Assembly: GCA_018822365.1 (NCBI GenBank)
Contig: JAHJKL010000086.1
Coordinates: forward strand, 1 to 33,998
DNA from: Candidatus Margulisiibacteriota bacterium
Lineage (GTDB): Bacteria; Margulisbacteria; WOR-1; O2-12-FULL-45-9; XYB2-FULL-48-7
DNA length: 33,998 nt
Direction: 5' to 3'
Part shown: positions 15,984 to 33,998 of the stretch, piece by piece
Position numbering within the stretch: position 1 is the first letter of the stretch
Layout of the letters: each line of letters begins with the position of its first letter
The notes under the pieces: generated by a model
The model's database searches: none
What the model was told of the DNA's origin: nothing
The model's input: only the letters and a program-made list of their open reading frames with translations
Translations under genes and position numbers: made by a program

Positions 15984-16014
15984 GACCTTTCTTTGGCCGA
16001 CCGAATTAGCCTAA

Positions 16015-16046: not shown

Positions 16047-16057
16047 GTTGAAATCAA
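16038..16057. promoter_or_regulatory. inverted repeat, possible operator
   Basis: ATTTCA-GT-TGAAAT (16041-16054) is a perfect palindrome, extended by TT and AA pairs two bases further out on each side. It lies in the only sizeable gap of the glycan gene string, just upstream of the permease genes, where a transcription factor could act. No regulator gene of LacI or similar type is seen in the window. Confidence 0.4.
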
Positions 16058-16076
16058 TATGCCGCGCAAAACACAC

Positions 16077-17051
16077 TTAGCGAAACATTTTATCTAAAAA
16101 ATAGCTGTCTTGCAAGGTGTTTCTTGCGGCCGAGACGGAGGGGGGAGAAGAGTCGACCCGCCAATCCCGCTCCTTGTTGATGTTAAACCAATTAAACAAC
16201 TTGATCCGCGGATAATTATTTTTAATTTTATTAAAGGCATCGGTGACCCAGGCCGCTTTATCCCCCCCATCTTCAGCCGAAGCGAACTCGCCGATCATCA
16301 GCGGCTTGCCCGAAAGAGCGGTCAGGGTCGAATATACTTCATTAAAAACCAGGTCGAACGACCGCCAGTCGCCCCCCCCCCAATTGTAGCCATCCATCCC
16401 CATCCAGTCGACATATTCGTCCCCAGGATAATAAGCAGCGATCGTGTTCCAGCTCTCTGCCGGAAGGTTAGCATGATTTGGGGACCAGACCATGGTCACA
16501 TTGTCAGCCCCTAATGATCTTTTTATATTATATATGTATCGCCAGGCTAGTTTATATTTCTCCGGGCCGGTATCCGAGCCATTGTGGAGCCCATCCCAGG
16601 AATACCAGTTGCCGTTCATCTCGTGGCCGAAGCGGAGAAAAAAAGGCTTCCCCCAATCTTTGGCCGCTTGCAGAAAAGAACGAACATAACTCTCATAGCT
16701 GCCGGAAGCGATCGCCTCCAGGGTTCCCGCGGAATTATTAAGCCAAGGCTCCCAGGTGATCAACGGGATGCTTCCGCTGGCATCAACTTTATCGGCATCA
16801 GCTTTTGGAAACGGCTCTTCCCACGACACATACCAGAGGACAACCGCCAGGTCCCGGCCGATCAAAGATTGAAATGAAGAAATATTATCAAACCCGTTAA
16901 CAAAGGCGCCGATCGCACAGCCGGAATAGTTACCTGAAACCGGGGTTAAAGGTTTAGCCACTTCTGGCCTGGCGCAAGAGGCGCAAAACAATGCCGCGAT
17001 AATGGGGAAAACAAGAAAAACAAAACGCACCCTCCTAGCGGAGATGGACAT
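16077..17051 (-). CDS. GH26-family glycosidase, probable lipoprotein
   Basis: The 324-residue protein begins with a basic stretch and a hydrophobic segment ending LFCASC. Cys26 is the likely lipidated residue, although the lipobox is atypical (Cys at -3). A GH26 domain fills the rest, with acid/base E144 in LRFGHEMN and nucleophile E255 in MIGEFASAE. DWMGMDGYNWG and the closing WFNINKERDWRVDSSP are shared in pattern with the GH26-CBM9 protein, so the two are paralogues. No carbohydrate-binding domain is attached. ATG 17051 overlaps the upstream gene by 17 bases; GTG 17030, directly after AGGAGG, is an alternative with zero spacing. It probably trims glycan at the membrane surface. Confidence 0.87.
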   Translation of the reverse strand: MSISARRVRFVFLVFPIIAALFCASCARPEVAKPLTPVSGNYSGCAIGAFVNGFDNISSFQSLIGRDLAVVLWYVSWEEPFPKADADKVDASGSIPLITWEPWLNNSAGTLEAIASGSYESYVRSFLQAAKDWGKPFFLRFGHEMNGNWYSWDGLHNGSDTGPEKYKLAWRYIYNIKRSLGADNVTMVWSPNHANLPAESWNTIAAYYPGDEYVDWMGMDGYNWGGGDWRSFDLVFNEVYSTLTALSGKPLMIGEFASAEDGGDKAAWVTDAFNKIKNNYPRIKLFNWFNINKERDWRVDSSPPSVSAARNTLQDSYFLDKMFR

Positions 17052-17534: not shown

Positions 17535-17565
17535 TCAGAAATCATATTCATTGAAAGGAGTTAAC

Positions 17566-19674
17566 ATGACTACAAGATCAAGTTTTCGTCCCTCCACCCT
17601 TCCCAAGAACGAGGCCGCCGGTCATATTGCCCAATGGCTGACCCATCAACGAAGTTTGATCAAACAAAACCCCCATCATCGGGTCGGTGTAGACGTCGGA
17701 ATGGAAAGCGTTCGCGGCATTCACCCGACGGAAATATTATCCATGCTCCACGGAAAAGAAGCGCCCAGGACGCTTGCCGGCATGGCTCAACTGGACCTTT
17801 CCGAAGTTATCCGCGTTTTTCAATCCGAAGAAGAGAAACCGATCGGCGGCGCCGGCGGCCTGGGGATTATTGAAGAAACGATCGGTTGGACCGCAGCCCG
17901 GCACGGCGAACAGGATAATTACGGGCTGGTTTGCCTCGCTCCATTACACATAATAAGAAGGCGGCAGTCTTTCAACGGGAACCGCCAGGTCACCGAACAA
18001 TATACCGTTGCACCGGAAAGAGATCCGGATTATCTTCCGCTTGGCGAGGTCAGCACCGTCACCCTGCACAAAAAAGAAGTACCGGTCCAAACCTGGCTTT
18101 ACACCGGATTCCGCAATGGTGGAAATTCCCTGCTTACACTCCGCTTAAGCGTCCCCGGAGTGACCGACCGACTCTATCCTCCTTTTTATACTCAGGAAAA
18201 CTTTGACCAGATGCAGGTGCTGGGCCAGGGAGGGTTCCGCCTCTGTCAAAAGCTCGGCATCATTGGAGTGGACAAGCCTTTGGCCAGTCTGGTTATCGGC
18301 CATGATGGGCACACCGCGCTCTTTAAATTCAATCTATTTCTGCACTTTTTGGATAAATTCGGTTCGCAGGAAGCGGCCTTAAAAGCGACCCGGATGCTCT
18401 GCGCCGCGACAATCCACGCGCCGCAGAACGGGACCGTTCCCCGCACGACCGGCGACATGGTCCTGGCCCATTATTCAAAAGAGCACGAAGAGATGTACGG
18501 CTACTTTGGGTCGCAGCAATTTGAGCGGACCAACGCCCTCTATGTAGAGATGCGCCTGAGCGAAATGATCGGCACGGTCTCGCCGCTCCATACCATGGTC
18601 ACGGAAGCGGAAGAAAGAGCGGCCCGGCGGGCTTTTTCCAACCAGGCAAAAGAACTGCTTCCTCCAGAAATTAACAGCTCCGATCTGACCGAATTCCCCG
18701 ATACCCTTGACGTCGAAAGCTGGCTTGGGATGGGCACAGCCCTAACCCTTGACAGTTTTGTTCCCGGCTGGCGGCGCAAGCCAGGGATGCTTGGCCAGCG
18801 GGAAACGATCGATTCGCTCAGCTGCAACCTGGATTTTCGCCGAGAACTGGTTGAAGCATACGATACACAAGAGAATCATTTGTTGGGATTGCTCGACGGA
18901 CGGCTTGACCGACGCTTTGGCGTGGCAATTCCGGAAAACGCCCTGATCTTTGCCTCCCTGCGCCGGGCAACCGCCTATAAGATCAATCTTATTTCCGCTG
19001 TCTTGAACCAGCACGAAACCTACAGCGCAATTGGCCGGGAACTGGGAAGACCGATCTTCTGGCTCTTTGGCGGGTTAGCCCACCAGGACGACACCCAGTC
19101 GATCGACGCCCTGCAAAACCTTCTTTCCCAAATGGAAAGGATCAATGAAGGAAGCGGTCTGTTTAAAACTGATTTTCTCCACGGATATAGTTATGACCGG
19201 GCCCGGTTCATTTTCCCTGGATTACCAAAGAGAGGCTGCTGGGTAGGGAACACCAATCCATTTGATAACCGCTCGCAGGGAACGGAAGCTTTTGGTCCCA
19301 GCTATTTAAAAGCGATCATGAACGGCGTCCACATTTTGGGGACTTTTGACGGCGGAGCAGGTTGTCTGCGGCAGTACCCGACCGTCCTGAATTTTGGCCC
19401 GGTCGCTTTTGCCGGAAATACCAGCTTCCACAACGACATGTGGAACAATGAAGCGATCGTCAAACTTTCCCGATTTCTTTTAGCCAACGGCTTTATCGGG
19501 GCCTTTGAGAAAGTCTCTTCGCGTCTGCATGAAGATATGCTCCGTTTTGAATCGAGGCGCGGCGCTCACGCCCCCGGCCTGGGAGCCAGGATCGAATCAA
19601 TGGCCCGGGCGATCGCCGGCTATAACGGCCGGGTCCTGATGAACAAGTACTTTGAGCAAGCGAGAAGAGGTTAA
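17566..19674 (+). CDS. alpha-glucan phosphorylase-like protein (GT35)
   Basis: The 702-residue protein matches the landmarks of glycogen/maltodextrin phosphorylase, which releases glucose-1-phosphate from alpha-1,4-glucan using pyridoxal phosphate. GGAGGLGIIEE lies in the N-terminal domain. VIGHDGHTAL corresponds to the LND-x-HP segment and ATIHAPQNG to the THTP loop. RRATAYK has K472 aligned with the phosphate-contacting Lys574 of the muscle enzyme. GTEAFGPSYLK has K582 aligned with the PLP-binding Lys, and GTFDGGAG follows. The overall sequence is very diverged and shorter than GlgP (about 815 residues), so its acceptor may differ. AAAGGAG lies before ATG 17566, which is preferred over TTG 17551. 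A 75-base gap with promoter P5 separates it from the next gene. Confidence 0.8.
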   Translation: MTTRSSFRPSTLPKNEAAGHIAQWLTHQRSLIKQNPHHRVGVDVGMESVRGIHPTEILSMLHGKEAPRTLAGMAQLDLSEVIRVFQSEEEKPIGGAGGLGIIEETIGWTAARHGEQDNYGLVCLAPLHIIRRRQSFNGNRQVTEQYTVAPERDPDYLPLGEVSTVTLHKKEVPVQTWLYTGFRNGGNSLLTLRLSVPGVTDRLYPPFYTQENFDQMQVLGQGGFRLCQKLGIIGVDKPLASLVIGHDGHTALFKFNLFLHFLDKFGSQEAALKATRMLCAATIHAPQNGTVPRTTGDMVLAHYSKEHEEMYGYFGSQQFERTNALYVEMRLSEMIGTVSPLHTMVTEAEERAARRAFSNQAKELLPPEINSSDLTEFPDTLDVESWLGMGTALTLDSFVPGWRRKPGMLGQRETIDSLSCNLDFRRELVEAYDTQENHLLGLLDGRLDRRFGVAIPENALIFASLRRATAYKINLISAVLNQHETYSAIGRELGRPIFWLFGGLAHQDDTQSIDALQNLLSQMERINEGSGLFKTDFLHGYSYDRARFIFPGLPKRGCWVGNTNPFDNRSQGTEAFGPSYLKAIMNGVHILGTFDGGAGCLRQYPTVLNFGPVAFAGNTSFHNDMWNNEAIVKLSRFLLANGFIGAFEKVSSRLHEDMLRFESRRGAHAPGLGARIESMARAIAGYNGRVLMNKYFEQARRG

Positions 19675-19692
19675 GCGCTTATTTCGTGAAAG

Positions 19693-19724
19693 TGAAATTA
19701 TCAGAAAAAATATTCGATATATAT
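19693..19724 (+). promoter_or_regulatory. sigma-28-like promoter P5
   Basis: TGAAATT at 19693-19699 and CGATATATAT at 19715-19724 are 15 bases apart (16 counted from GAAAT), identical in wording and spacing to P6. The -10 half starts 35 bases before ATG 19750, and AGGAG follows as ribosome binding site. The Bacillus SigD -10 consensus is GCCGATAT. Confidence 0.65.
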
Positions 19725-19749
19725 TTAGACAGAAAGTAGGAGATAAACG

Positions 19750-21714
19750 ATGAGTTCAATTCTAATGGTTGGGCAAACCAGACCGTCCCTGGCAAAAAGG
19801 ACCCCTGCGATCAGTTACGGCAGGCGCCCTCTTCATCAGGTTATCTGGAACAGATCCGAGGAACAAAGGATCGTTCATCTTCCGACAGATTATGAATATC
19901 TTCTTCAGGGGCGCGACGGAACCCCCTGGCACCGCATGTCAGAAGAGTGGCAGGCCCAGCGGTTTGCAGACCTGGCTAAAATTCCCTGGGATACGACGGA
20001 CGACGTCAGAGGACTGGTCGGCAACCCAAGATCTACCAAGATCCGCCCCGAACAGGTCTCTTTTATCGACCAGGCCGAGATCCCGACGTTAACCGCCCTT
20101 TCTGCCGAAGGAAAGCACGAACAGCTTGGGGAACTTTTGATCCGGAGCGGCCGGTTAGCCAGGATCACCGTGGCCGGCGGAGAAGCGGCCCGATTCAGAA
20201 ACCCCGGAGATTTAAGGCCAAAGGCACTGATTGAAATAACTGACGAAGGCCCCCTGGCCAGCGAAACCTACTTATCGATCATGGCCCACGATCATTTGTT
20301 GACCCAGCAACGATTTCAGCCCGCAAGCCCTATTCCCTGGCTGTTATTCGTCAGCGCGACAATGCGCCAGGCGTTTGAAGATTATTTTAAACAGCACAAT
20401 TATTTCGGGCTCGATCCCGACTCAGTCGCTCTTTTTGAAAATACCGCTTATGTCCCAAAGTTCCGCCGGGACGGGCGGATCGCCCTGATGGCCGATATGG
20501 ACGGCGGAAATAATCAAGACGACCAGATCGCTTTTTATACGTCCGGGCACGGAGCGCTGGTCCAGGCCTACCGGGAAAACCCGGTTTTTATCCGCGGACA
20601 TCGCTACGATCAGACTCCTCATGCTTTTTTGTCCCAACGTGATGTTCGCCTGATTTTTCAATCAAACATCGACAACCTGGGAGCCAGGACCAGCACCAGA
20701 GGATACAGCATTATTCTTGGACATTACGCAGCCAAAGAAGAAGAGGCAAGCGTTCGCATGCTGGTCGAACTGACCAGGCCGCTGATCGGGATCCGCCCGG
20801 ACGGCAGCAAGTTTTTCTGGGACGAGGGGGGAGTCGCTCTAAAAGTTGACGGCGTGCCAACAATCGTTGACGGGAACGCCCTGGCCGAATCTGTCCTGCA
20901 GCAAACCAGGAACCCGGAAAAGCCATTCCCTTTTAATACCGCCAACGCCACCTACGGCATCGAATCAATTCCCGCCGGCGCCTCCCTCCCCGACCAAATC
21001 CAGGTCCGCAGCGGGCTCTACCAGTATGAGCACAATTTCTGGAACCTTGCCGGTATAATGGATACTACTTTTGTAGAAGTCCCTCGATTCCTTCCCGACC
21101 GACTAAACGAACTTCCTCCAACCAAGGTGGGACAGCCATTCAGCCGGCTCGCCCCTTTTACCGAAACCACCGGTCCAATTGACGGAGACAACCGGTTCAT
21201 CCCGGTAAAACAATGGGGTCATCGCCGACAGGCGGCATCGCTCTTTGTTTACATCACCCGTTATAACCACGACCTCCTGCTCGACCGGGTCAAGGGGACA
21301 ACCAGGGTCCTGATCGTTGACGATTCCGACAACTTCCGCGAAAACACCGCCGACCTGCTCAGGTCCGACGGCTGGACAAGCGTCACCACCGCCGGTTCCA
21401 GGGAAACGGCGCTAGCTTTGCTTGCGGAGCAGGATTTCGACCTCGTGATGCTTGACTCAATCCTGGAACCGGAAGATCAACAACAGGAAATGACCGGCGG
21501 GGTTTCCATTTTGAGAGGATTAAAAGAAAATCCGGAAGCCAGAAACCACGGAGCCCGGGTCGTTTTCTGGAGCGGACAAGAAAGCGTTGAAGCGTCAAAA
21601 GGGTTAAGCGTTTTCCAAACCCAAAGATACGAAGGCGTTGAATACGTCAAAAAAGAATCCGTTCTGCCAAACCAACTTACAGATTTCCTAGCGAAACTAC
21701 TGCTGGGGGAGTAA
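19750..21714 (+). CDS. UDP-sugar pyrophosphorylase-like enzyme fused to a response-regulator receiver domain
   Basis: The 654-residue protein has two parts. Residues about 60-490 resemble UDPGP-family uridylyltransferases (UAP/AGX and UGPase type). RITVAGGEAARF at 138-149 is the nucleotide loop and RPKALIEI follows as the PK motif. IPWLLFVSAT, NYFGLDPDSV and ALMADMDGG fit the sugar and metal regions. Residues about 515-650 form a complete receiver domain: acidic pair D524/D525, phosphoacceptor D569 in LVMLDS, S608 in FWSGQ, and Lys at 634-635. No DNA-binding domain is present, so phosphorylation probably controls the enzyme itself. A histidine kinase gene follows 18 bases downstream. The nucleotide loop AGGEAARF departs from the usual AGGxGTRL, so activity needs testing. 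Confidence 0.78.
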   Translation: MSSILMVGQTRPSLAKRTPAISYGRRPLHQVIWNRSEEQRIVHLPTDYEYLLQGRDGTPWHRMSEEWQAQRFADLAKIPWDTTDDVRGLVGNPRSTKIRPEQVSFIDQAEIPTLTALSAEGKHEQLGELLIRSGRLARITVAGGEAARFRNPGDLRPKALIEITDEGPLASETYLSIMAHDHLLTQQRFQPASPIPWLLFVSATMRQAFEDYFKQHNYFGLDPDSVALFENTAYVPKFRRDGRIALMADMDGGNNQDDQIAFYTSGHGALVQAYRENPVFIRGHRYDQTPHAFLSQRDVRLIFQSNIDNLGARTSTRGYSIILGHYAAKEEEASVRMLVELTRPLIGIRPDGSKFFWDEGGVALKVDGVPTIVDGNALAESVLQQTRNPEKPFPFNTANATYGIESIPAGASLPDQIQVRSGLYQYEHNFWNLAGIMDTTFVEVPRFLPDRLNELPPTKVGQPFSRLAPFTETTGPIDGDNRFIPVKQWGHRRQAASLFVYITRYNHDLLLDRVKGTTRVLIVDDSDNFRENTADLLRSDGWTSVTTAGSRETALALLAEQDFDLVMLDSILEPEDQQQEMTGGVSILRGLKENPEARNHGARVVFWSGQESVEASKGLSVFQTQRYEGVEYVKKESVLPNQLTDFLAKLLLGE

Positions 21715-21732
21715 TGCCACAGCAAAAACAAC

Positions 21733-23847
21733 ATGGTAGTACAAGTAGGTAAAACCCAAAAAAGCCTTTCCCCCCCGCCGTCAACCATCTCGAGACGGCG
21801 AAGATGTTTAACCTTTGGCGACCTTAGTTTGCTAAAAAAAAGCGCTTTCGCCACTTTCGACAACCAGGGAAGGTTAAAGGGATTGAATGACCGGTTTGCC
21901 AGGCTTTTCTGCGGTCCCGTTGAACGACTGGATCAATCGGTCCTGGACAGCGCTGATTTTTCAAAGTTACTGGCAACCATTGCCGCCACCACCAATGAGG
22001 TCATTTCTCCCGCCGACCTGCTGCTGGTCCGGGACCTTAATATCGTTTTTAGGAATATCAGGGTTGGGGAAGCGGCCGACACCCCCCGTTTTTCCGGGCA
22101 GATCGTCCGCGCCTCAAGCCACAAGATCCTTTGCTACCTGTTCCAAACCGACCAGGAGAACGTCGCCAGCTCCGCCCTGACCGCCGACGAACAACTTCTG
22201 CTTGAAGCGGGGGCTTACGCCTTTGGCGCCCTGCACGCGGTCAAAACCCCTATCCTGGCGATCAGAACGCTTGCCGCTCTGCTCGGAAGAATGGCTAATG
22301 ATCCGGAAGCGGTAGTTAAAAAAAGCCAGGCGATCGGCACCGAATGCGATTCCCTGCTCCGAATGGTCACCGAAACGTTTGCCATCAGCTCCGGACGGCC
22401 GGAATTCAAGCCTCTGGATATCAGACAAATACTGGAAGAGATCGTTCAGTCCAGGAAACAGCATATTGAAAACCAATTCAATCTTTGTTTAACCGGAGAG
22501 CCGGCCAAGATCCTTGGCGTTGAAGGCGGGCTGCGCAACGCTTTTGCTTCGCTGGTTGACAACGCCGTCCACGCGGTGCAGACGGCGCGGCCGGCAAGCG
22601 GCCAGGTCACGATCAGCATCCATGACGTTGCTCTGGAAGGCTGGGTCAAGATAGTTATTCAGGACAACGGCTGCGGAATCCCGGAAGAGAATAAATCAAG
22701 GATCTTTGATGTCTTCTTTACCACCAAAAAAAGCGGTTCGGGAATGGGACTGCCAACAGCTAAAAAGGTGATCGAAGATATCCATAACGGGCAATTATCC
22801 TTTACCAGTCAGCCGGGGGAAGGGACAACGTTCACGGTCCTCCTCCCCCGCCAATCATCGGTCAGGTTTCCCTCCTCTCCCTCCATTGACCTCCCCAGAA
22901 AAATCGATGATGTTAAAAAACAGGTCAAGCCGGAACACCGGCTATACGTCGGCCAATGCTTTGAGTTCATGACCCTGGAACATCTTCGGGAAAGCACCGT
23001 CACCGAACTGGTCGCGCAGGTCGACGGGCAGGTCGGCCGGCTTTTAGAATATCTAGCGACCGGCAGGCACCATCTGTCGATCAATAATTTTTCGCGCCGA
23101 ACAGAGCTGGTCATCGCCGGCGATGCCGCCTCGGTCGGCCGGGCCCATTGGGAAAATGTCATTAAATACGTCTTGCACCAACTCGGGCTTGAACACGTCA
23201 AAACAATCCCGACCAGGGTCATCAAGCTCGACGGCTCCGCCTGCCGCATTTTTGAATTGAGCAGGGACGATGAAAAACTGCCGGAAACCGAGATCGCCGA
23301 ACTGGAACCGCTCCTGCGGGCGCGGCTGATCCCTTTCCCGACCGCCAAAGAGCTGGAAGCCCAGGCAAATTTTATCGAGCTGGTCTACACCAGCCTGCTA
23401 AAACAGCCCGGCTTCATTTTAAGCGTTATCTTCAACCCGCAAACACTGGCAAATGCCGCCGCCTATCGGGCAGTCAGCTTCAAGCTCCGGTTCCATCCGC
23501 CCGCTCCGACCCACGAGTCATTCCTGCTCGACAAATACGGCGTGGAACAGCCCCAACCGGCAATGTTCCTTAGACATTACATTGATCAATATCTCTGGCC
23601 AGGCGAAGTCATGCTGGTCCACGAAAAGATCGAGCCGGCGAGGCTGCTGGCGCTTGGCATGGATGATTTCACCGCAAAAATCCTTTTTGCTTCCGGCTAT
23701 AAATCAGCGCGTGTCGCGATCTTCCCCAGCCGAAAGGGGGGCCGGGTGATCAATGCTTTCTGTTCTTCCAACCAGGAAATTGGCGAAAGCGACACCGAGC
23801 TTTTCCTCTCCCTGAACAGAGAATGGAATTTTAACGCTAATTCATGA
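21733..23847 (+). CDS. sensor histidine kinase with large unknown C-terminal region
   Basis: The 704-residue protein lacks membrane segments and is probably cytoplasmic. After a basic, Pro/Ser-rich start, a PAS-like domain occupies about 28-130. The dimerisation domain has the phospho-acceptor His168 in LHAVKTP. The ATPase domain has N277 in LVDNAVHAV, DNGCGIP at 311-317, FFTTKK and GSGMG at 335-339, so the kinase core is intact. About 330 further residues (375-704) match no family I recognise. The gene follows the receiver-domain fusion by 18 bases and is the obvious partner. ATG 21733 has no good Shine-Dalgarno; a 12-codon ORF starting at the upstream TAATG overlaps it and may feed ribosomes to it. 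Confidence 0.88.
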   Translation: MVVQVGKTQKSLSPPPSTISRRRRCLTFGDLSLLKKSAFATFDNQGRLKGLNDRFARLFCGPVERLDQSVLDSADFSKLLATIAATTNEVISPADLLLVRDLNIVFRNIRVGEAADTPRFSGQIVRASSHKILCYLFQTDQENVASSALTADEQLLLEAGAYAFGALHAVKTPILAIRTLAALLGRMANDPEAVVKKSQAIGTECDSLLRMVTETFAISSGRPEFKPLDIRQILEEIVQSRKQHIENQFNLCLTGEPAKILGVEGGLRNAFASLVDNAVHAVQTARPASGQVTISIHDVALEGWVKIVIQDNGCGIPEENKSRIFDVFFTTKKSGSGMGLPTAKKVIEDIHNGQLSFTSQPGEGTTFTVLLPRQSSVRFPSSPSIDLPRKIDDVKKQVKPEHRLYVGQCFEFMTLEHLRESTVTELVAQVDGQVGRLLEYLATGRHHLSINNFSRRTELVIAGDAASVGRAHWENVIKYVLHQLGLEHVKTIPTRVIKLDGSACRIFELSRDDEKLPETEIAELEPLLRARLIPFPTAKELEAQANFIELVYTSLLKQPGFILSVIFNPQTLANAAAYRAVSFKLRFHPPAPTHESFLLDKYGVEQPQPAMFLRHYIDQYLWPGEVMLVHEKIEPARLLALGMDDFTAKILFASGYKSARVAIFPSRKGGRVINAFCSSNQEIGESDTELFLSLNREWNFNANS

Positions 23848-23862
23848 TCGGGGGTAAAAACA

Positions 23863-25245
23863 ATGGCTAACCATCTTTCCGCCCACCAGGCGATCCAACG
23901 GGGCATGGTCCATACAGCAGTACTGGCTGGAGGGTTTGGTTCACGGCTGGACGCCGCCACCGACCCGGGACGCAACAGGTTCGCGGTCGCCAAGCCGGCC
24001 TGCACCGTCGGCAATCTCCGGATAATTGAATTTACCATCCGCGCCTTAAGAAAAGCCGGGATCAGCGATTTTCACCTGCTCCTCTGCTTCCTGCCTGAGA
24101 CTATCCGCCAGGTGGTCGGCAACGGCAAGATCTACGGCGGCAATGTCACGATAACCGAATCGACCCAGGACATCACCGACCCGCTCGACACCGCCAGCGT
24201 TGTCGGCAATTTGGTCAACAACAGCGGCTGGTCAAAAAATCCCGGTGATGTGATCATCGTCCCCAGCGCCGATATTATCCATGATGTTGATATCTCCGCT
24301 GCCCTTGACCAGCATCTTTTTAACAGGAAACAATACGGGGCCTGCGCCACAATTGTCTCAAACGCCGTCCCCTGGAGCAGCGTGGACCGCTTTGGCACAA
24401 TGCGCCTGGAAGGGATGCCGGAACGCCAGGACTACAAGAACGACCTGGAATTTGAGGACGCGGTCGGCGCCTGGCTGACCGAGCATTCCGCCTCCAGCGC
24501 CAAGATCCTGGAATTCAAGGAAAAAGCCAGACGCGGCGCCGCGTTAAGCAACCTGAATAATTCCTCCCTTTACTTTTTTGACGCCTCTTTGTTCGAGCTG
24601 ATCCTGCCACTATTAACAAAAGATGAAAAAGGCCCCCCCCTGGTACCGGAAATATTCCAGCCGGGCGGACCATCCCCCTTTTCTGACTGGGGAAGACATG
24701 TTTTTATGTGGTTGACCCATGAAGCCAGGCGCAATCAATATCCGGTCTTTACTTATGTCATGCCCGATCGCTCTTACTGGCGTGACGCCGGGATCGGCGA
24801 AGAATTGCGCCTGGCAAGCATGGATGTTCTGACCGGGAAGATCGATTCAGGCATTAAAGAAGGTGAAGGGGCTTTCTGGTTCCCGATCGGAGATAACAGC
24901 TGGCGCGGCCATAATGTTTTTGTCCACCCATCAGCTTACGTCGCCAATTCGCTGATCGGCGACAATGTCTCCATCGGGCCCGGCGCCACGGTCGAACATT
25001 CGGTAATCGGTTCAAACGCTCATCTGGAAGCAAAGGTCGGGTTAAGGAGGACTGTCGTTTTCCACCAAAGGGACCCGCAATTTTCAACCCTGATCGGTAC
25101 CGGTTCCCAACTTACCGACTCGTTGGTTTTAGGGGGAAAGATCATTCCCGGGAGCCGTTTTAACGGCGCGATGCTTTACGATCCGGTAGGCGGCGTGGCG
25201 ACCGGCTCGCTTGGCGGAAAAACCCAGTTCAGTCCGGCCAGATAA
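23863..25245 (+). CDS. GlgC-like sugar-1-phosphate nucleotidyltransferase
   Basis: The 460-residue protein starts its catalytic domain with VLAGGFGSRL at about 20-29. KPACTVGNLRIIEF then recalls the KPAVPFGGKYRIIDF-type region of ADP-glucose pyrophosphorylase. IIVPSADIIHDVD and VDRFGTMRL fit the metal and product-loop regions. A left-handed beta-helix follows from about residue 346 (repeats such as SLIGDNVSIGPGATVEHSVIG). It would join a sugar-1-phosphate to a nucleotide; the sugar and nucleotide cannot be told from sequence. An insertion follows GSRL, before the first catalytic Lys region. GGGGG lies seven bases before the ATG. It is encoded 15 bases after the kinase gene. Confidence 0.82.
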   Translation: MANHLSAHQAIQRGMVHTAVLAGGFGSRLDAATDPGRNRFAVAKPACTVGNLRIIEFTIRALRKAGISDFHLLLCFLPETIRQVVGNGKIYGGNVTITESTQDITDPLDTASVVGNLVNNSGWSKNPGDVIIVPSADIIHDVDISAALDQHLFNRKQYGACATIVSNAVPWSSVDRFGTMRLEGMPERQDYKNDLEFEDAVGAWLTEHSASSAKILEFKEKARRGAALSNLNNSSLYFFDASLFELILPLLTKDEKGPPLVPEIFQPGGPSPFSDWGRHVFMWLTHEARRNQYPVFTYVMPDRSYWRDAGIGEELRLASMDVLTGKIDSGIKEGEGAFWFPIGDNSWRGHNVFVHPSAYVANSLIGDNVSIGPGATVEHSVIGSNAHLEAKVGLRRTVVFHQRDPQFSTLIGTGSQLTDSLVLGGKIIPGSRFNGAMLYDPVGGVATGSLGGKTQFSPAR

Positions 25246-25272
25246 CATTAATTTTTTGAAAGGAAGATAGAA

Positions 25273-26889
25273 ATGAGCCACAGAACAATGCTGCTCGGCC
25301 TGGTTGGAGGGGTAGGCTCCCGGCTCTATCCACCGACCGCCCACTTTGGTTTATCCGCCAAAGAACTGAAAAAGGTCCGCCTCGGCCCACAAAGCTACAA
25401 CGCTAACGCGATCCCAAAGCCGCTTACCCATCTTGGGCAAGTACCGCTTATGGGCCCGCTTTTTGAAAGAACGATCACCCAGACTGGAGTCGAGGACATT
25501 GCCATGGCGGTCATGTACCTGGGGAACGACATCAAAGCTTTTTTCGGCGCTAACATGGAAAGACTGCGGCGCGGGACCGGAAGTAGTTTTTATTGGGACC
25601 ACCAGCAAGAGTTCAACCTCAACACCGCTGGTTGTCTGGTCCGGGGGTGGCAGTTGGACCTGAAAGGCCGGGACGGCCATGCTGAAACATATGTCGTTCT
25701 TTCCGCCGACATTCGCTCTAATGTAAATATCGGCCGGATGCAGAAATTTCATAATGAGCACAACGCGCTGATCACCATTGCTCTTGCCCCTGTTCCCTGG
25801 CAAGATGTCGGTCGTTTTGGCGTCGCTTTCCGGGAAGGGGCGACCTTTGACGGCGAGGGGCGCCAGGTCCCTCTGTCAGGCGGCAAGTTTTCCAGGATCA
25901 CCCGCTTTGAGGAAAAAAACCCGGAGGCCAAAAGCAACTTAAATAACACCTCGATCTATTTAATTGATGACCGGGTTTTCCGCCTGATCGAGGAAGATGT
26001 CGAAGTTCCCGCCAACCAAAACCAGCTTGATCCACACCTAAGCACAGAAGAACAACAAAAACTAAATCCCTATAGTTTACCGGTCGCTAAAACCTTTGAT
26101 CCCAAACGGGGAAACTATGCCAACGACTGGACCGACCCGATCACCGGCCGACACTACCGCCTTGGGGTTTTCTCTACTATTTTATTGATGTTAGGCAAAA
26201 GAAAAGAGGGGGAAGCCAACCTGCGCTTCCAGGATTGGGGGGGACATGTCTTCCCCGAGATCGTTACTCACCATCCGGAAATTTACCGGGCCGGCAAAGC
26301 GGGAGAGCGCGAAGGCTTTTTTGGCTATGTGACAGGCAGTCTTTGGGCCGATGACGGGACAAGGAAGGCGCTTCTCCAGGCGAACATCGAGATGCTCCGG
26401 GAAACAGGAGGCTATAATCAGAACGGAGGCCAGCACGATTTTTCCTGGTGGCCCAAACCCGGATATACCCTTTCACGAGACAGCGCCGGGAACAAACTCT
26501 GGGTCGCCGACAATGTGACGATCGAAGAAGGGTCGCACCTCATTGGCCCGCTGATGATCGGCCCAGGAGCAGTTATAAAAAGAGGGGCAATTATACAACG
26601 GTCGGTCATTGGCGCCAGCTGGGAAATTAGCGGCGGCGCGATCACCGACTCTGTTCTTTGGCCGGACCGGCTGGTAATCGGCCTCCCTCCAGGCCCGATC
26701 CCACTGGAGTATAAATTAACCGGAATGGTCCTGGAACATACCCTGGTCGGGAGCGGCCTCCACCCGGACAAGGACGCTTTTTTTGTCGACGATGGGGGCG
26801 ACTACGGGCTGGTCTTCACCGGCGCGCGAACGATCAAAAACCGGGTCCTGGTCGCCAACTCGTCCGGGGTGTTCATTTCCAGCTTCTAG
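25273..26889 (+). CDS. second sugar-1-phosphate nucleotidyltransferase with beta-helix end
   Basis: The 538-residue protein has the nucleotide loop in variant form, LVGGVGSRLYPPT at 9-21. An insertion of about 28 residues separates it from KPLTHLGQVPLMGPLFERTI, the usual substrate-region pattern, and VMYLGNDIKAFFG follows. VLSADIRSNVN supplies the Asp of the metal site. The protein is unusually long for the family, with insertions around 200-330. A left-handed beta-helix runs from about 406 to 480 (LIGPLMIGPGAVIKRGAIIQRSVIG). AAAGGAAG precedes the ATG. It is the third nucleotidyltransferase in a row of five genes. The G of AGG is retained, but the first Ala of the loop is Val, so substrate preference or activity may have shifted. 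Confidence 0.8.
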   Translation: MSHRTMLLGLVGGVGSRLYPPTAHFGLSAKELKKVRLGPQSYNANAIPKPLTHLGQVPLMGPLFERTITQTGVEDIAMAVMYLGNDIKAFFGANMERLRRGTGSSFYWDHQQEFNLNTAGCLVRGWQLDLKGRDGHAETYVVLSADIRSNVNIGRMQKFHNEHNALITIALAPVPWQDVGRFGVAFREGATFDGEGRQVPLSGGKFSRITRFEEKNPEAKSNLNNTSIYLIDDRVFRLIEEDVEVPANQNQLDPHLSTEEQQKLNPYSLPVAKTFDPKRGNYANDWTDPITGRHYRLGVFSTILLMLGKRKEGEANLRFQDWGGHVFPEIVTHHPEIYRAGKAGEREGFFGYVTGSLWADDGTRKALLQANIEMLRETGGYNQNGGQHDFSWWPKPGYTLSRDSAGNKLWVADNVTIEEGSHLIGPLMIGPGAVIKRGAIIQRSVIGASWEISGGAITDSVLWPDRLVIGLPPGPIPLEYKLTGMVLEHTLVGSGLHPDKDAFFVDDGGDYGLVFTGARTIKNRVLVANSSGVFISSF

Positions 26890-26955: not shown

Positions 26956-29900
26956 ATGTCGGCAATGAACTATCAAAGAATTCTACCAGCAAGGATCAAC
27001 GCGCTGCCCAGCACAGCGCCGCATATCCAGGCGCTTCATCATCGGGGTGCGCGGCCAGGCTCGATTTTACCATCACGCTTCAACCCCATAACACCCGGAC
27101 AAATCGCCAGTTGTGATCCAGCAACTATCGCGCCAACCGTCACTCAACTGAATTTAACCCCGCCGATTATCGCTAAAACAAATCGCGCACCATCATTGGC
27201 GAAAAAATTAATGGTCGGCGCCGCCGCCGGAGCCGCGACAATGTTAACTTCAGCGCTGGTCCTGGCCAGCGATGTTGCCACCCCGCTGGTCACCGGCGGC
27301 AATAAAGCTTTTTTCGCCTGGGGAGCGATCGGCCTGGGACTGGCCTACACCACCTGGCGCTTATGGAAACAACTTAAACCGGGCGATTATCAGTCGCCGC
27401 AAAGCCAGCTCAACACCGCCAGTCCGACCCCAAAAAAAATATTCAAGACCCTGGTCGTCCCCGCCTGGCTGACCATGATGGCGGTCGGCAGCGCGATGCG
27501 TTTTGCCCCGGCGATTGATGCTCTTCTCATCCCCTTGACCGAAAAATATCTGGGAGTGGTCCTCCCCAACCTGACCATTCCGATCGTCGGCATGCCGCTC
27601 ACTCTCTCCTGGGCGGTCTGTTCTGTTTTGCTCGGCCGGGCGGCGATAAAAATGGCGGTCAGCTCCGCTGTCGACCTTTATCGCGCCTACCGCTTTCACC
27701 GTTACGGTGAACAGCGGAACGATATCACCCGGCCAAGGCTGATCTCCTCATTGATCACCAACAAGGGACACATCTCTTGGACGGTCGGCGCGATCTTTAC
27801 CGTCCACTTGAGCGAGATCTACGCCACGCAAGCGCTTAGCCTGCTTCGCAACTTTCTCCACAACGCCCTGTTTGAACCAAACGCCCTGACCGGCGCCGCT
27901 GTTTTGGGGGCCGTCTTTGGATTGGTCGGTTTGGCCCGGCACTTTATTGTCGGCCGGAAAGAATTGAAAGTCGGCCAGCCACTGGAAAAACATCCCTGGG
28001 TCAAAACCGCCGCCCTGGCCGCCGGCTCCGCGTTTTTAGTCGGCGCCGGAGTTTCTCTCGGCGGCCCGGCCCTGGCCGCAGCCAACCTGCTGGTTTTTGC
28101 CGCGGTCTTGGGCTTCTACCACAACTTTATCCACTCCAGCCGCTCGCAGGAAGGGGGGCTCCATCAAAAAGACAAAGTCTTCCCGGTCTTTGATCTGCAA
28201 TCGCTCTGGGAAAATGTCCGCGGCCCCTGGGGTGCGGCCAGAACAATTTTCAAGCCCGGAGTCGACATGGTCGATCCTCTCGTTTCTTCGTACATCATGG
28301 TCATGTTGACCGAAGGGTCCAATTGGGTCCTTAACGCCCTCTCCGGCTGTTTCTCCGCCGCTGATTATTCTAAGGCGATCCAAATGATCACCAAACTCCT
28401 AAACCCGGCGGCGGAAAAAATGAGGGCAATCCTTAAAACCGGTTACAACCAGGTTAAATCAGCCGCGACCGCTGAAGCGGCCCGCGACGCCTTTGCCGAT
28501 TCTCTGGAAGCGACCGCCCGATTTCTGGAAGAGCGAGCGACCGGCGATCTAAAAACAGTTTCTGGGCTCGGTTTTCTAAAAGATGGGATGTTTGCCACCG
28601 GTTTGCCGGGAATAGACAACAAACGGGGGGACCAGGACCTGCGGGTCCATGGTGAACACTTGCGTTTTGCCGCCAGGATCTATGAAGAGACCGCCCGCCG
28701 GATCCGTTCCCAGGATATCAGCCAGGTCGATCTCGCCTCATACAAAGCGACCCTGGCGACCCGCCTAAACGCTCTCTACTGTCGGGCTTTCCCGCATTCC
28801 GACACCACACCGGTCCGTTTTTACACCAACATTCTGCCGGACGGTTACAACGCCAAACAATTTGCCGTCGACTTCTGCCAGCAGGTGATGGCCGATTTTG
28901 TCGGCGCTTTTGATGTCGCCATTATCGCCCCCAACGGCCAGCTCAAACTCTGGCTCGTCCCGATGAAAGTGGTCAAAGACTTTAAAGAGGATTACCGCGA
29001 TGTTTTGGCGGTCGAAAGCCGGGACGCCGAAGGAGAAGACCTCCGCTTTGGCTGGTACGAGCGGGCTGACCATGACATCGTCAATACTACCCTTAGCGAC
29101 ATTGCTTATATTGACAACACCGACCACTTCCGCCGGCACGGGCACGACATCAGCAAATACCCGACAGCCGAGGTTTTGACCCCGCCAACCCTGGCCAATG
29201 ACGAATACTACGATGTCGTCTACCGGGACGGCACCCGTTTAAGAGTTTTTGGTGACGGAAGAGATGAATTGATCTCCGGCACCCTTGAAGGGAAAGCCCC
29301 TCTGCTAATCCTGCCGGGAACCAAACGGCACGAATACACCGCGGCCAACACCGCCGAGGTCTTAAACGGCACACCGATCGACTCCACCCTTTACGATAGC
29401 TTGCAAAAGGGAGATATTCCCCACCCCTGGGGAGGTTCGCTGATCAAAGATTCTAATATCGCCTGCCGCTGGCGCTTTATGTACCCGACCGAATACACCA
29501 GCGTCAGCGACGCCGACCAGATGGATATCAACGTCACCAACCTCCGGCTCTTCCACGTCCGGGCCAATCCCCACCTGCGGATCATGTTCCGCCGGCCGCG
29601 GGTCGAAACGGTCCCCTACTCGCCCGATATGGTTGAATCAAAAAATGATTCCCTGCTGGAAGCGGGGGTCGCGGTGGTTTGGATGATGATGAAAGTCAAA
29701 TTAGCCGACGGCCGGGAACTCTATTTCCCGCTCAACATGAACAAAGAGAACGAGCGGACCTTTGGCGGCGACCTTTGGAAATATATCGACCAGACCAAAC
29801 CACTCCAGATCGTTAAAAAAGAGACCGGCTATTTTCTGAAAATCAGCTATCGCGAAGAAGCAAAAAAAGACCCGGACTTTCGCAACGCCGTCGGGATAGA

Positions 29901-30492
29901 AACCAACACGAATGGAACCCTCCCGGTCATGAAAGGGGGCAAATACAATAACCGCGAATCGATCAGCGAGGTCCCGATGCCAATCGAAATGATCGGCCTG
30001 GCTGACCAAATCAGCACGGCTTCGATCGACCCGATTCGTTACGGCGACGTCGGCGGTCCGGTCCCGGTCATGGACTACTTCTTCATCCGACACAACGAGA
30101 ACGGCGACGTCACCGACCAGTCAAGGCAAAAAACTCTGCCGCGCCGCCTGGCCCAGCAGATTATCGCCGGGACTTATTCCCTGCTTAGCCAAAAAGAGAT
30201 GGACCATGCCGCCCTGGTCGATAAAACCATTGAACCGGGCGATCTCCCCTACACCGACGACAATGGGCTGGTCCACATGAACATGACCAGGGAAGAATAC
30301 GCTCAACTTATCGCCTGGCTCCCCAATTATCACGGCGGGCGTCAAGCAATGTTGCGCCAGGGGGAAATGACCATGGAGGTCGGCGAGTTTGTCGCCCTCT
30401 GCAACAGCGCTTACGAACAATTCTCTTATCGACGGTTTATGCCGGACGACCGCTACCGGACCTTTTGGGAAGCGGCGGAGGTCAAGCTATGA
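26956..30492 (+). CDS. giant polytopic membrane protein of unknown function (1178 residues)
   Basis: No family is recognised. A basic, Pro/Ser-rich start of about 80 residues is followed by roughly seven hydrophobic segments within 85-390. About 790 mostly hydrophilic residues follow, with a mixed helical then beta-rich pattern and many conserved-looking Asp, His, Arg and Trp residues. Segments such as SVSDADQMDINVTNL (around residue 850) contain a D-x-D-like motif, but it is not enough to call a glycosyltransferase. ATG 26956 has P6 and a ribosome binding site. The stop overlaps the start of the next giant gene (ATGA), so the two products are made in a coupled way and may form one complex. 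It lies directly after three nucleotidyltransferase-family genes, which hints at use of their nucleotide sugars. Confidence 0.6.
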   Translation: MSAMNYQRILPARINALPSTAPHIQALHHRGARPGSILPSRFNPITPGQIASCDPATIAPTVTQLNLTPPIIAKTNRAPSLAKKLMVGAAAGAATMLTSALVLASDVATPLVTGGNKAFFAWGAIGLGLAYTTWRLWKQLKPGDYQSPQSQLNTASPTPKKIFKTLVVPAWLTMMAVGSAMRFAPAIDALLIPLTEKYLGVVLPNLTIPIVGMPLTLSWAVCSVLLGRAAIKMAVSSAVDLYRAYRFHRYGEQRNDITRPRLISSLITNKGHISWTVGAIFTVHLSEIYATQALSLLRNFLHNALFEPNALTGAAVLGAVFGLVGLARHFIVGRKELKVGQPLEKHPWVKTAALAAGSAFLVGAGVSLGGPALAAANLLVFAAVLGFYHNFIHSSRSQEGGLHQKDKVFPVFDLQSLWENVRGPWGAARTIFKPGVDMVDPLVSSYIMVMLTEGSNWVLNALSGCFSAADYSKAIQMITKLLNPAAEKMRAILKTGYNQVKSAATAEAARDAFADSLEATARFLEERATGDLKTVSGLGFLKDGMFATGLPGIDNKRGDQDLRVHGEHLRFAARIYEETARRIRSQDISQVDLASYKATLATRLNALYCRAFPHSDTTPVRFYTNILPDGYNAKQFAVDFCQQVMADFVGAFDVAIIAPNGQLKLWLVPMKVVKDFKEDYRDVLAVESRDAEGEDLRFGWYERADHDIVNTTLSDIAYIDNTDHFRRHGHDISKYPTAEVLTPPTLANDEYYDVVYRDGTRLRVFGDGRDELISGTLEGKAPLLILPGTKRHEYTAANTAEVLNGTPIDSTLYDSLQKGDIPHPWGGSLIKDSNIACRWRFMYPTEYTSVSDADQMDINVTNLRLFHVRANPHLRIMFRRPRVETVPYSPDMVESKNDSLLEAGVAVVWMMMKVKLADGRELYFPLNMNKENERTFGGDLWKYIDQTKPLQIVKKETGYFLKISYREEAKKDPDFRNAVGIETNTNGTLPVMKGGKYNNRESISEVPMPIEMIGLADQISTASIDPIRYGDVGGPVPVMDYFFIRHNENGDVTDQSRQKTLPRRLAQQIIAGTYSLLSQKEMDHAALVDKTIEPGDLPYTDDNGLVHMNMTREEYAQLIAWLPNYHGGRQAMLRQGEMTMEVGEFVALCNSAYEQFSYRRFMPDDRYRTFWEAAEVKL

Positions 30493-33400
30493 GCGCTATA
30501 AGATATGAACATATTCGCCGGATGGGGTCGCTCCCCTTCGCGGCGGTCAAGCCGGCGGGAAGCCTGCCGCGCCTCAATATTGGGGGGAGCACCGCCAACC
30601 TTAACGTCATTAACTGGCAGGGGCGGAGCTGGGAATGCGACTCCCGCCAAATGGGCTACAGCTTTCTCCACGGCTCCGAACCTCATCTGCACATTGTCGG
30701 AATGGGCTTGCCGGATGTTTTCTGGCAAAGCATTGGCTCAAAACAAAAAGAACCTGGTTGGGCGGTCGGCCGTTTTCAGGGAGAACCGGGAAATCCCCAG
30801 GGGCCAATTACCTGGCAGGCGGTCAGCGACCTTCAGGTTTCTCCTATCCTTTGGAAAACCAGCTCATCTGTTCTCTCCTATCTGGGGCATGAAACGGTCA
30901 GCGGCAATATTGCCGCCTGCCGGGCCGATGGAAAAGACATTATCACCACTCACATCTCCGGCGACCAGGACCGGAGACTGATCCACATCAATCCCGACGG
31001 CTGGACTAAAACCCACCCGGAGCGGCAACAGTTGATCGAACAGCTTGACGGAATATCGCTCTCGACCGATATTGAATCGACCTCCATGTCCGCGGACCGG
31101 ACCAGGCTCCTTTTGACTTCAAAGATCAAAGACAGATCAGGCCGGCCGATCGTTCACGAGATCGACATCAGCTGGATCGCTCCGTCTGTTAGAGAGAGCA
31201 TGTATGTTGATATCCGGGATAAAAAATATAACGTCCGCCTGATCGAGTCCGACCCACGGATCGACTTTGAAGTTCTGGAAAGGGAACAGGTCACCGTTTT
31301 TCACAACGAAACGATCAGGTTCCTTGATTATCAGACGATCCGGGCTTACCGCGACGAACAAGGGGTCTTCAAAGTGACCGTTGAAAACCGGCCGACCGCC
31401 AGAGACCCCAAACCAGAACCCCCGATCGTTCTGGCCGGCAAAACTTTCCGGGAGATCAGAAAATCAGACGCGTACAAAGCGCTCCCCAGAGAAGTGCGCA
31501 GGGCGATCATCAAAACCCTGTGGGAAACCTATGAAACTCCCAACCTCCCCTGGTCGCGAGTTAAGAGCATGCGCCACCGCTATTCGCTCCAGTATTATAA
31601 TTACCGGGAAAGCCGGATCAAAAATGCATTAGAAACTCCCCTGCAGGAGGGGGAGTCGGTCGTCACCCTGCGGGTCCAGTCCTCTGCCCGGGTCGTCCAT
31701 CTTGACGAAGCAAACGGCCGCCAACCAGGAGTCACAGAAGTTATCCCCCTTCCATTTGATCCGACCGAAGGGCATCCGGACCAATTCAGGCTGATGAACT
31801 TTGATCCGCGGCCAAATTCGATCGATGCCACCCGGTTCGTCCGGCCGGTCGATACCGCCATTGCTCCCCAGCATTTGATCGACCCTTATGTCATGGGGAC
31901 AGAGATCATGGCCGCTGTCTGGCCAAAAGCCGACCAGCTCGGTTTCTTCGGACCGTTTATGCTGACTGCTATGGCCTTTCCGCACGGCAAGCAATTTACC
32001 GATTCGTTCATGAACCCATGGTTTGTCTCCTTATTTGGATCAACCTCCCACAGTATCTTTGACGGCAAACGGGATGCCGGACGAAGTTATTCCCTCTTTG
32101 GAAACGCCATGTATTCGGCCAAGATGGTCGGCGCCGCCATGGTGACCGGCCCCAACACCGACTCGGCCAGCCCGGTCAGGGAAGGTCGGCTCTTCCCGGT
32201 CAGGCTCCCGGGGCGGCCGCCGATCTTTGTCAAAACCGCTATCCCCGGTTCTTATATTGAGGTCATTGAAGACGCCCTCTCTTCGTATATGTTTATGCGG
32301 ATGTTCGGTTTTGTGACCGAAACCACCGTTTTAACCTTAAGCGCGGGAGGCGGGCTCGACAACTATATGAACGCTTTAGTCACCCAGCGCGGGGTGCGCT
32401 GGAACGCCGGGGAAAATATCTATTCCAAAGACGCCTGGGAAGTAATTTATGAGGATATGATACGTGGCCCGGTCTTCACCCCCGGTTCCATCTATTATCA
32501 GGCCAAAACTTTTGTTCTTCGCGGTAATGGAGTTGCCCCGGAAGCAACCCAGGAAAATATCGACCGGGCCGACGGCCTGGGGGCGATTAAATCGCAAAAA
32601 GCAGTCGCAGTTGCCGCGAGCGGTGGAACAAAAAGCCCGGTTAAGCTCGTTATCGCCCCGAACCAACCGGTAGCTAAAATGTTTGAACCGGCCGAGGCGA
32701 GGGAATGGCTCAACGTCGGGACCTGGTACTGGGATTCCGGCGCCAAGCTGGTCTCTTTCTCAATGGTCGCGATCGCCGTTTCGCTTGGAGTCGCTCCGCT
32801 GGCGGTCGCCGGAGCGGCCTTCTTTTTTGTTTGTCTCGCCATGACCATGTTCAGCTGGCCGTTCTGGGCGGCGCAGATGGCCAAGGTTGGGATCGCGCCA
32901 AAGACTATTATTTCTGTTTTTCCCAAGCACCTTTTCTGGGGAAATCTCTCGATGCACACCACCGTCAAAGCCAACTTCGACATGGGAAGGCTGGGGGTTG
33001 GTCGGTTCCGGATCAGCGACCGGAGCCTCGGCAATCGTGTCCCTCTGCGCGATAAACGGACCTCTTTTTGGGTCGGAATCGTTCTCCCGTCAACCGCCGG
33101 GACACTTCTTGTCGGCGGAGCCCTGGCAATCACCGTCGCGATGGGAGCGGTCCCGATCGCCCTGGCCGGTCTCCCATTTATCGCCGGCTGGCTCGCCTCC
33201 CGTTTCCTGGACAAGTGGGCAAGCCGCCTCCTGCCGAACGCCAACCAACAAAGCTTTGCCAAAGCGGCCCTCCGCTTTGCCGCCCGGAATGTTCCGTTCG
33301 CCCTGGGGATCGGCGCCTCCCTTCTGGTCCTCCCCTACTACGCGGTCTTTGCCATTCCGCTGGTGACCGCGGCAATGGCGGGAGGGTGGTCGCTCTACAT

Positions 33401-33986
33401 GGGAGCAAACATCCTTAAGGAATTTTCGATTTATCACAAAGAACAACGGGAAGCCTTCACCCGACCGGAACCGAACCCGCAAAGTATCGCTCGCCATCAG
33501 GCCGACACCTGGCGGAACACTTTTAAAGAGATATTTGGGATCAGGCCGCCGACTTTCTTTAAACAGGAATTTACCGCCAGCTCTAACCCAAAAGTCGACC
33601 CCTATAAGCTCTGGGAAGCGATCGACACTGCTAAGGCCGGCCTGCTTGACAAACCAAGCGGCAATCCAATGGCCAACCTCAATAGTTTAATTAATGGCGA
33701 GGAAAGTGCCGACAAAAAACCAGAATTAGCTCGGATCGTTTACCTCTATAACGAACTAAAAGAAAAACTGGCCGCCAGCAAGACTCCTGGATTAGAAGGG
33801 ATTATCCGCCGCTGGAAGATCAACCGTCTGGAGACCCAAACCAGGAATAATGTCGCCACCCTGCTTAGGGAACATCGCCAGGCCGGCAGATTAGAAGCCG
33901 AACAATACGACCGGATCTGTGAACTAAATCGACTGGTCATTGAAGAAGCCTTCCCCGGCAACACGCCGCGGGAACGGTGGATCTAA
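30489..33986 (+). CDS. second giant membrane protein of unknown function (1165 residues)
   Basis: No family is recognised. ATG 30489 overlaps the previous stop as ATGA, with GGAGG seven bases upstream, so it is preferred over the in-frame TTG at 30465. Like its neighbour it begins with MSA and a basic, Pro-containing stretch. About 750 residues of mostly hydrophilic sequence come first, with a beta-rich pattern in the first 300. About six hydrophobic segments lie in 750-980, and a charged, helical tail of about 190 residues ends the protein. Around 600-670 the order IED then QRGVRW followed by membrane segments recalls processive GT2 synthases (TED and QxxRW), but spacing and motifs are imperfect. 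The membrane part sits at the opposite end from that of the 26956 protein, so the pair could be complementary subunits. Confidence 0.6.
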   Translation: MSAIRYEHIRRMGSLPFAAVKPAGSLPRLNIGGSTANLNVINWQGRSWECDSRQMGYSFLHGSEPHLHIVGMGLPDVFWQSIGSKQKEPGWAVGRFQGEPGNPQGPITWQAVSDLQVSPILWKTSSSVLSYLGHETVSGNIAACRADGKDIITTHISGDQDRRLIHINPDGWTKTHPERQQLIEQLDGISLSTDIESTSMSADRTRLLLTSKIKDRSGRPIVHEIDISWIAPSVRESMYVDIRDKKYNVRLIESDPRIDFEVLEREQVTVFHNETIRFLDYQTIRAYRDEQGVFKVTVENRPTARDPKPEPPIVLAGKTFREIRKSDAYKALPREVRRAIIKTLWETYETPNLPWSRVKSMRHRYSLQYYNYRESRIKNALETPLQEGESVVTLRVQSSARVVHLDEANGRQPGVTEVIPLPFDPTEGHPDQFRLMNFDPRPNSIDATRFVRPVDTAIAPQHLIDPYVMGTEIMAAVWPKADQLGFFGPFMLTAMAFPHGKQFTDSFMNPWFVSLFGSTSHSIFDGKRDAGRSYSLFGNAMYSAKMVGAAMVTGPNTDSASPVREGRLFPVRLPGRPPIFVKTAIPGSYIEVIEDALSSYMFMRMFGFVTETTVLTLSAGGGLDNYMNALVTQRGVRWNAGENIYSKDAWEVIYEDMIRGPVFTPGSIYYQAKTFVLRGNGVAPEATQENIDRADGLGAIKSQKAVAVAASGGTKSPVKLVIAPNQPVAKMFEPAEAREWLNVGTWYWDSGAKLVSFSMVAIAVSLGVAPLAVAGAAFFFVCLAMTMFSWPFWAAQMAKVGIAPKTIISVFPKHLFWGNLSMHTTVKANFDMGRLGVGRFRISDRSLGNRVPLRDKRTSFWVGIVLPSTAGTLLVGGALAITVAMGAVPIALAGLPFIAGWLASRFLDKWASRLLPNANQQSFAKAALRFAARNVPFALGIGASLLVLPYYAVFAIPLVTAAMAGGWSLYMGANILKEFSIYHKEQREAFTRPEPNPQSIARHQADTWRNTFKEIFGIRPPTFFKQEFTASSNPKVDPYKLWEAIDTAKAGLLDKPSGNPMANLNSLINGEESADKKPELARIVYLYNELKEKLAASKTPGLEGIIRRWKINRLETQTRNNVATLLREHRQAGRLEAEQYDRICELNRLVIEEAFPGNTPRERWI

Positions 33987-33992: not shown

Positions 33993-33998
33993 ATGAAA
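33993..33998 (+). CDS. possible start of a further gene, cut by the window edge
   Basis: After the stop at 33984-33986 the sequence reads GGAGGG followed by ATG AAA at the edge. The strong purine tract suggests that another gene of the same operon begins here. However, the spacing from GGAGG to this ATG is only one or two bases, so the true start may lie beyond the window. Confidence 0.3.

Follow-up and report, generated by a model that had tools for sequence, protein, structure and literature searches.

Work on enzymes of the cellulose-synthase type has treated them as single chains, one polypeptide serving both to make the polymer and to thread it, and such synthesis and export are normally accomplished by one protein of roughly one third the size of the two proteins described here taken together. 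These proteins, P0001 and P0002, are encoded side by side at positions 26956–33986 on the plus strand of contig JAHJKL010000086.1 from a Candidatus Margulisiibacteriota bacterium, a contig of 33,998 nucleotides (nt) that was analyzed whole and is called the window below. We conclude, with moderate probability, that the pair is a split, strongly diverged variant of the BcsA-type synthase that lacks several strict cellulose-synthase signatures. Like BcsA and CesA (family GT2; TIGR03030), it has, in this order, ED, RW, membrane segments, a gating-loop-like F-x-[IVA]-S-x-[RK] and further membrane segments, and its neighbours include a GH8 enzyme, which we take to be comparable to BcsZ, as well as nucleotidyltransferases of the kind that make nucleoside diphosphate (NDP)-glucose. 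Unlike BcsA and CesA, the pair consists of two polypeptides totalling 2343 amino acids (aa), gives no match to a GT2 model, lacks KAG, has a QRxxRW one residue longer and no located DxD, and shows no PilZ match; the cluster proteins that were scanned yielded no match to BcsB or BcsC. A glycosyltransferase made from two polypeptides is described in Alg13/Alg14, the bipartite UDP-GlcNAc transferase. That enzyme has a GT-B fold and, unlike the synthase proposed here, belongs to the N-glycan pathway, is not processive and forms no channel. Literature searches returned nothing on split or giant cellulose synthases or on split glycosyltransferases in these bacteria, and the text of PMC6349859, the principal publication on these lineages, contains none of six terms looked for, among them cellulose, giant and glycosyltransferase.

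The two genes are arranged as mirror images. P0001 (26956–30492, ATG start, 1178 aa) carries a membrane block near its N-terminus followed by a soluble part of ∼800 aa, while P0002 (30489–33986, ATG start, 1165 aa) begins with a long soluble part and carries its membrane block towards the C-terminus. An alternative in-frame TTG start for P0002 lies upstream at 30465 and would give 1173 aa. The stop codon of P0001 (TGA, 30490–30492) and the start codon of P0002 (ATG, 30489–30491) overlap as ATGA at 30489–30492, as the original prediction had read from the letters. Hydrophobic segments were counted by Kyte-Doolittle hydropathy averaged over homologues, at mean thresholds of ≥1.6 and ≥1.0. Residues 85–384 of P0001 (27208–28107) contain four segments at the stricter threshold and eight at the looser one, and residues 747–959 of P0002 (32727–33365) contain three and four, with six in the P0002 homologue of genome G059 taken singly; the earlier estimates of about seven and about six segments lie within this uncertainty. 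Since the blocks fall at 85–384 in the first protein and 747–959 in the second, we regard the proposed mirror-image layout as real. Two further, weaker hydrophobic segments of P0001, at residues 640 and 899, are probably not membrane segments.

To follow the pair beyond the window, we searched 74 genomes of the phylum WOR-1/Margulisbacteria. P0002 is present in five of them (G000, G064, G059, G061 and G047) and P0001 in the same five, with one additional chance-like match in G023 (E 7e-4) that contains two internal stops and was judged chance or peripheral. The two genes are adjacent in every carrier and overlap in four; ATGA is kept in G064 and G059, a short overlap is found in G047, and in G061 the genes are separated by a 1-nt gap. 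The G064 orthologues are 93% (P0001) and 90% (P0002) identical, with ratios of nonsynonymous to synonymous substitution rates (dN/dS) of 0.108 and 0.117, respectively. Judged from these alignments, both genes are under purifying selection and are not chance open reading frames (ORFs). In comparison with G059, conservation is highest at residues 451–640 of P0002 and 851–950 of P0001. A P0002 profile run over 383 genomes, from this phylum and others, gave only two extra matches, both weak and both judged chance or peripheral: a low-complexity repeat in G296, and a match in G053 that covers only the C-terminal 34 columns. The G053 protein (L066, ORF 582–1754, minus strand) is a separate 390-aa protein bearing the motif found at the C-terminus of P0002 (ELNRL-type, SHOCT/DUF1707-like), which suggests that this motif is a small detachable module.

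Searches of Pfam, NCBIfam and PDB sequences returned no match naming either protein, only sub-threshold ones such as a weak DUF1707/SHOCT-like match (0.015) at the P0002 C-terminus. We therefore compared profiles with hhalign, using a full-length P0002 profile of 6 rows and a full-length BcsA-type profile of 10 sequences (Escherichia coli K-12 BcsA and nine plasmid-borne bcsA-like genes), with significance assessed by window shuffles. The best match scored 38.6 and the collinear chain 106.5, values that none of 150 shuffles reached (maxima 31.2 and 78.5). The chain joins P0002 residues 248–265, 459–493, 590–641 and 746–878 to BcsA-type positions 205–222, 338–372, 402–450 and 496–604, and takes in ED, RW, one membrane segment and FRISDR. 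As controls, 17 unrelated families from the window scored at most 19.8 as templates against P0002 480–920, where BcsA scored 33.4, and at most 26.4 as queries against BcsA. This comparison places P0002 as probable kin of the BcsA/cellulose-synthase-type GT2 enzymes, BcsA-like over residues 459–878. The original view that neither protein matches a nameable family thus stands for direct searches and gives way, for P0002, to kinship with BcsA-type GT2 synthases seen by profile comparison.

The motifs of BcsA give this alignment a functional frame. According to two reports, ED is the catalytic base, QxxRW provides acceptor stacking and diphosphate contact, and FxVTxK is the gating loop (PMC6821405, PMC10592267). 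In P0002, E594-D595 (32268–32273) is the sole invariant ED in either protein; hhalign places it on the ED of BcsA, and it is kept in 5/5 covering rows, reading TED in G047. QRGVRW (residues 633–638, 32385–32402), which hhalign sets on QxxRW, resembles that motif with one extra residue, its RW being invariant in the same number of rows. FRISDR (840–845, 33006–33023), of the general form FR[IVA]S[DE][RK], sits between membrane segments and is aligned with the gating loop, whose position in BcsA it matches. Upstream of these, VVHLD[D/E] (402–407, 31692–31709; D406 invariant in 5 rows) falls on BcsA VVLCDD in a low-confidence part of the alignment, and FDPRP (438–442, 31800–31814; D439 invariant) stands at the BcsA DxD position with the second Asp absent. 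Invariant DxD pairs occur twice in P0001 (559/561 and 852/854) and nowhere in P0002. The second of them, D852-A-D854 (29509–29517; DAD or DSD, invariant 5/5), opens the most conserved stretch of P0001 and is a candidate GT2 DxD by eye, for which profile comparison gives no support.

Relatives of the pair were found in sister lineages. GH8 genes are present in 35 of the 74 phylum genomes, several within giant ORFs, and we read 15 stretches around some of these genes, in 10 genomes. In G046 (∼2290 aa) and G073 (1836 aa), a single gene lies directly before the GH8 giant, and homology between the G046 and G073 proteins extends along most of their sequence (E 5e-60). G070 has the homologue split into two adjacent ORFs, one of 1022 aa and one of 1166 aa, that overlap as TAATG (L108:2020–8579), and its membrane segments lie at 349–405 in the first ORF and late in the second, at 946–1077; here, too, the next gene is the GH8 giant (3/3). 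All three keep, in order, DAD or DVD, SED, RWxRG and F..S.K, with 130 or 131 residues between RW and F..S.K. As a side observation, the DD-type aspartate is changed in G070, which reads VAALS where G046 and G073 read VAD.S. The C part of these relatives matches BcsA at E 3.2e-9 (0/100 shuffles) and the N part at P 3.4e-4 (0/60 shuffles), and when 226 ORFs were scanned against BcsA, an ordinary GT2 came first, followed by the G073 gene and the second G070 ORF. Therefore, giant one-chain and two-chain BcsA-like synthases exist in such clusters. Two other giants in similar cluster positions were tried as relatives and set aside, as they match neither the pair nor BcsA convincingly: a 2319-aa protein of G044 with many hydrophobic segments (L105:11447–18406, minus strand) lies outside the 30 best of the 226 ORFs, and a 1332-aa protein of G060 with N-terminal hydrophobic segments (L098:11012–15010) matches BcsA over only 15 columns. 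They may be even more diverged versions.

The pair holds the corresponding place in its cluster and shares with these relatives the membrane–soluble–membrane layout, the total size (that of the G046 chain), the GH8 giant neighbour and the kinship to BcsA; overlapping genes are shared with G070. Unlike the pair, the relatives retain DAD/DVD together with SED, G070 is split before its DxD, and sequence similarity to the pair is not significant. Because direct similarity is not significant, the link rests on cluster position, layout and shared BcsA kinship rather than on sequence alone. A search for the two genes fused into one found no gene with detectable sequence similarity to both proteins, the fused equivalents being recognized by position, layout and BcsA kinship. 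The original proposal that the proteins are two halves of one membrane machine is well supported, since they occur in the same 5/74 genomes, are always adjacent with coupling conserved, and have single-chain and split relatives in the same type of cluster.

On this basis, we think it fairly probable that P0001 and P0002 together form a single membrane polysaccharide synthase, giant, processive and strongly diverged, that is of the BcsA kind (GT2) and is made as two polypeptides. P0001 would be translated just before P0002, and both would come together in the inner membrane during their synthesis. P0001, with its N-terminal membrane bundle and large soluble domain, probably supplies the N-terminal bundle that is missing from P0002, and its invariant DAD possibly supplies metal-binding aspartates. 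We infer this place in the enzyme from co-occurrence and coupling, from the layout of the relatives, and from the membrane block at the N-terminus of P0001, where P0002 has none. P0002 would contribute the glycosyltransferase part, with ED as catalytic base, RW as acceptor and diphosphate contact and FRISDR as a gating-loop-like element, together with the C-terminal half of the export channel. In such a scheme, UDPGP-like and GlgC-like nucleotidyltransferases would supply NDP-sugars, the GT2-like domain of P0002 would polymerise them at the cytoplasmic face, and the polymer would pass through a channel of P0001 and P0002 helices. The GH26 and GH8 giants of the cluster may then trim or edit the polymer, PKD, Ig-like and SLH proteins may anchor it at the surface, and a histidine kinase/response regulator, a Ser/Thr kinase and a PP2C phosphatase may regulate the process. 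A beta-glucan and a mannan are both candidates for the polymer, and GH8 and GH26 do not decide between them.

A number of results weigh against this synthase reading. The Pfam GT2 match is absent in all 11 members searched, and AlphaFold2 monomers from a 3-row alignment reached confidence (pLDDT) values of only 31.6 and 32.5, giving unusable models. The P0002–BcsA tests conflict, with 9/100 shuffles reaching the score in a cruder full-length set-up with template insert columns removed versus 0/150 with them kept. Neither a profile built from nine GT2s of this phylum (19/100 shuffles) nor direct comparison with the single-chain relatives (15/60) gives P0002 a significant match. P0001 is not significantly similar to the BcsA profile (26/150 shuffles reach the top score and 45/150 the chain) or to the single-chain relatives (18/200 and 60/200 in targeted re-tests). 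At the level of motifs, KAG, invariant in 10/10 BcsA-type sequences, is found at the corresponding place in neither protein, DPRP occupies the DxD place, QRxxRW stands instead of QxxRW, and the gating-loop Lys is replaced by Arg in four of the five genomes (window, G064, G061 and G059), with Lys in G047; PMC10592267 reports that K-to-R in this loop abolishes BcsA activity. A catalytic domain with membrane helices flanking it on both sides in one chain is likewise not found, the membrane blocks lying on two chains. Because some defining features looked for are missing, we do not file the pair as a BcsA family member; that it works like one is moderately probable. The lack of KAG together with DPRP, QRxxRW and the gating-loop Arg makes an inactive or altered enzyme a real rival. 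If it descends from a GT2 synthase but has lost catalysis or taken on another role, the pair would serve as a membrane scaffold or polysaccharide exporter, which would also suit its strong divergence from all GT2 profiles. We consider this improbable, as ED and RW are invariant in all covering rows and lie within conserved stretches, dN/dS is ∼0.11, and G000, G064 and G059 contain no gene matching TIGR03030, the ordinary cellulose synthase, at E ≤ 1e-10. In the window's own genome the best TIGR03030 score is 12.7 bits, on another contig and below the curated-model score; other GT2s are present in G061 and G047, on contigs other than that of the pair. In addition, among the genes of the cluster run in G064 only the pair encodes polytopic membrane proteins, which leaves no other candidate there for the channel.

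How catalysis would be divided between the chains is a separate matter. The active site may be shared, with D852-A-D854 of P0001 supplying the DxD lost in P0002 (DPRP) and P0002 giving ED595, RW638 and the gating loop, so that only the heterodimer would be a processive GT-A polymerase. We hold this arrangement as tentative and rather doubtful, as profile tests give no support to residues 852–854 as a DxD, and we keep that assignment only within the shared-site proposal; an earlier candidate for a GT2 domain start in P0001 (735–769, YPTAEV...FADGS) was dropped for want of the same support. The absence of a GT2 signal from P0001 in profile tests would fit a P0002 that holds the whole catalytic domain and half a channel, with VVHLD[DE] as DD, FDPRP as a changed DxD, and P0001 as an accessory membrane partner in a BcsB-like role, not as the N-terminal part that the synthase lacks. 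In accordance with this, hhalign sets P0002 402–407 on BcsA VVLCDD and 438–466 on the stretch from DxD to TPH..DP, and the 459–493 match is part of the significant chain. Against it, P0002 is without N-terminal membrane segments, which are present in the single-chain relatives and in proteins of the BcsA type, the sub-test of residues 340–500 against BcsA is marginal (14/200 shuffles), and the second DxD Asp is missing, and we judge it unlikely. Finally, the lack of any family match and the non-significant direct comparison with the single-chain BcsA-like relatives would be expected if the pair were an unrelated two-component membrane system, a transporter or signalling device, whose similarity to BcsA is convergent or due to chance. 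This is the least probable of the readings, since the collinear BcsA match exceeds all 150 shuffles, the negative controls stay low, and the gene neighbourhood is one of polysaccharide genes.

If the synthase reading is correct, a natural two-chain version with one-chain and split relatives would show how far such an enzyme can be enlarged and cut while working, and would offer a test bed for separating catalysis from the channel. It would also indicate that, in uncultured relatives of cyanobacteria, a giant-gene cluster of 52 kb makes a surface polysaccharide that has yet to be described.

In the complete genome of G064, the pair lies within a run of ∼19 co-directional genes (963986–1016541, 52 kb), many of them giant. 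In the window, five co-directional cluster genes lie upstream on the plus strand (17551–26889), in an order kept in G064: a phosphorylase-like protein weakly similar to glucan phosphorylases, a UDPGP protein with a response regulator, a histidine kinase, and two GlgC-like nucleotidyltransferases with a left-handed beta-helix. At 19750–21714, the UDP-sugar pyrophosphorylase-like domain (PF01704) is fused to a receiver (PF00072) and followed by the histidine kinase gene, so this nucleotidyltransferase is apparently under two-component control. Downstream of the pair, the window closes with the start of the following gene (start codon at 33993; 33993–33998, plus strand), which is preceded by a GGAGG ribosome-site-like stretch and encodes 468 aa in G064. 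There, it is followed by a 1295-aa GH26 protein, an 1841-aa GH8/TPR protein, a PKD-repeat protein, the Ser/Thr kinase, the PP2C phosphatase, Ig-like proteins and two SLH-domain proteins; a GH8 giant is present in the clusters of both G064 and G061. The downstream giants of G064 (C1 981785–1016541; L021–L022, L032–L033), which include TIG/Ig-like proteins, share the orientation of the pair.

Elsewhere in the window, a plus-strand gene at 4120–6240 encodes a 706-aa protein without a Pfam match at E 0.01, and three small genes follow it. Divergent from the cluster, the minus strand at 11730–17051 encodes two GH26 proteins (one with CBM9), two sugar-type permeases of the ATP-binding cassette (ABC) class and a weak CBM11 protein. 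The order of these genes is conserved in G064 and G047, and they possibly serve the uptake and breakdown of the same polymer.

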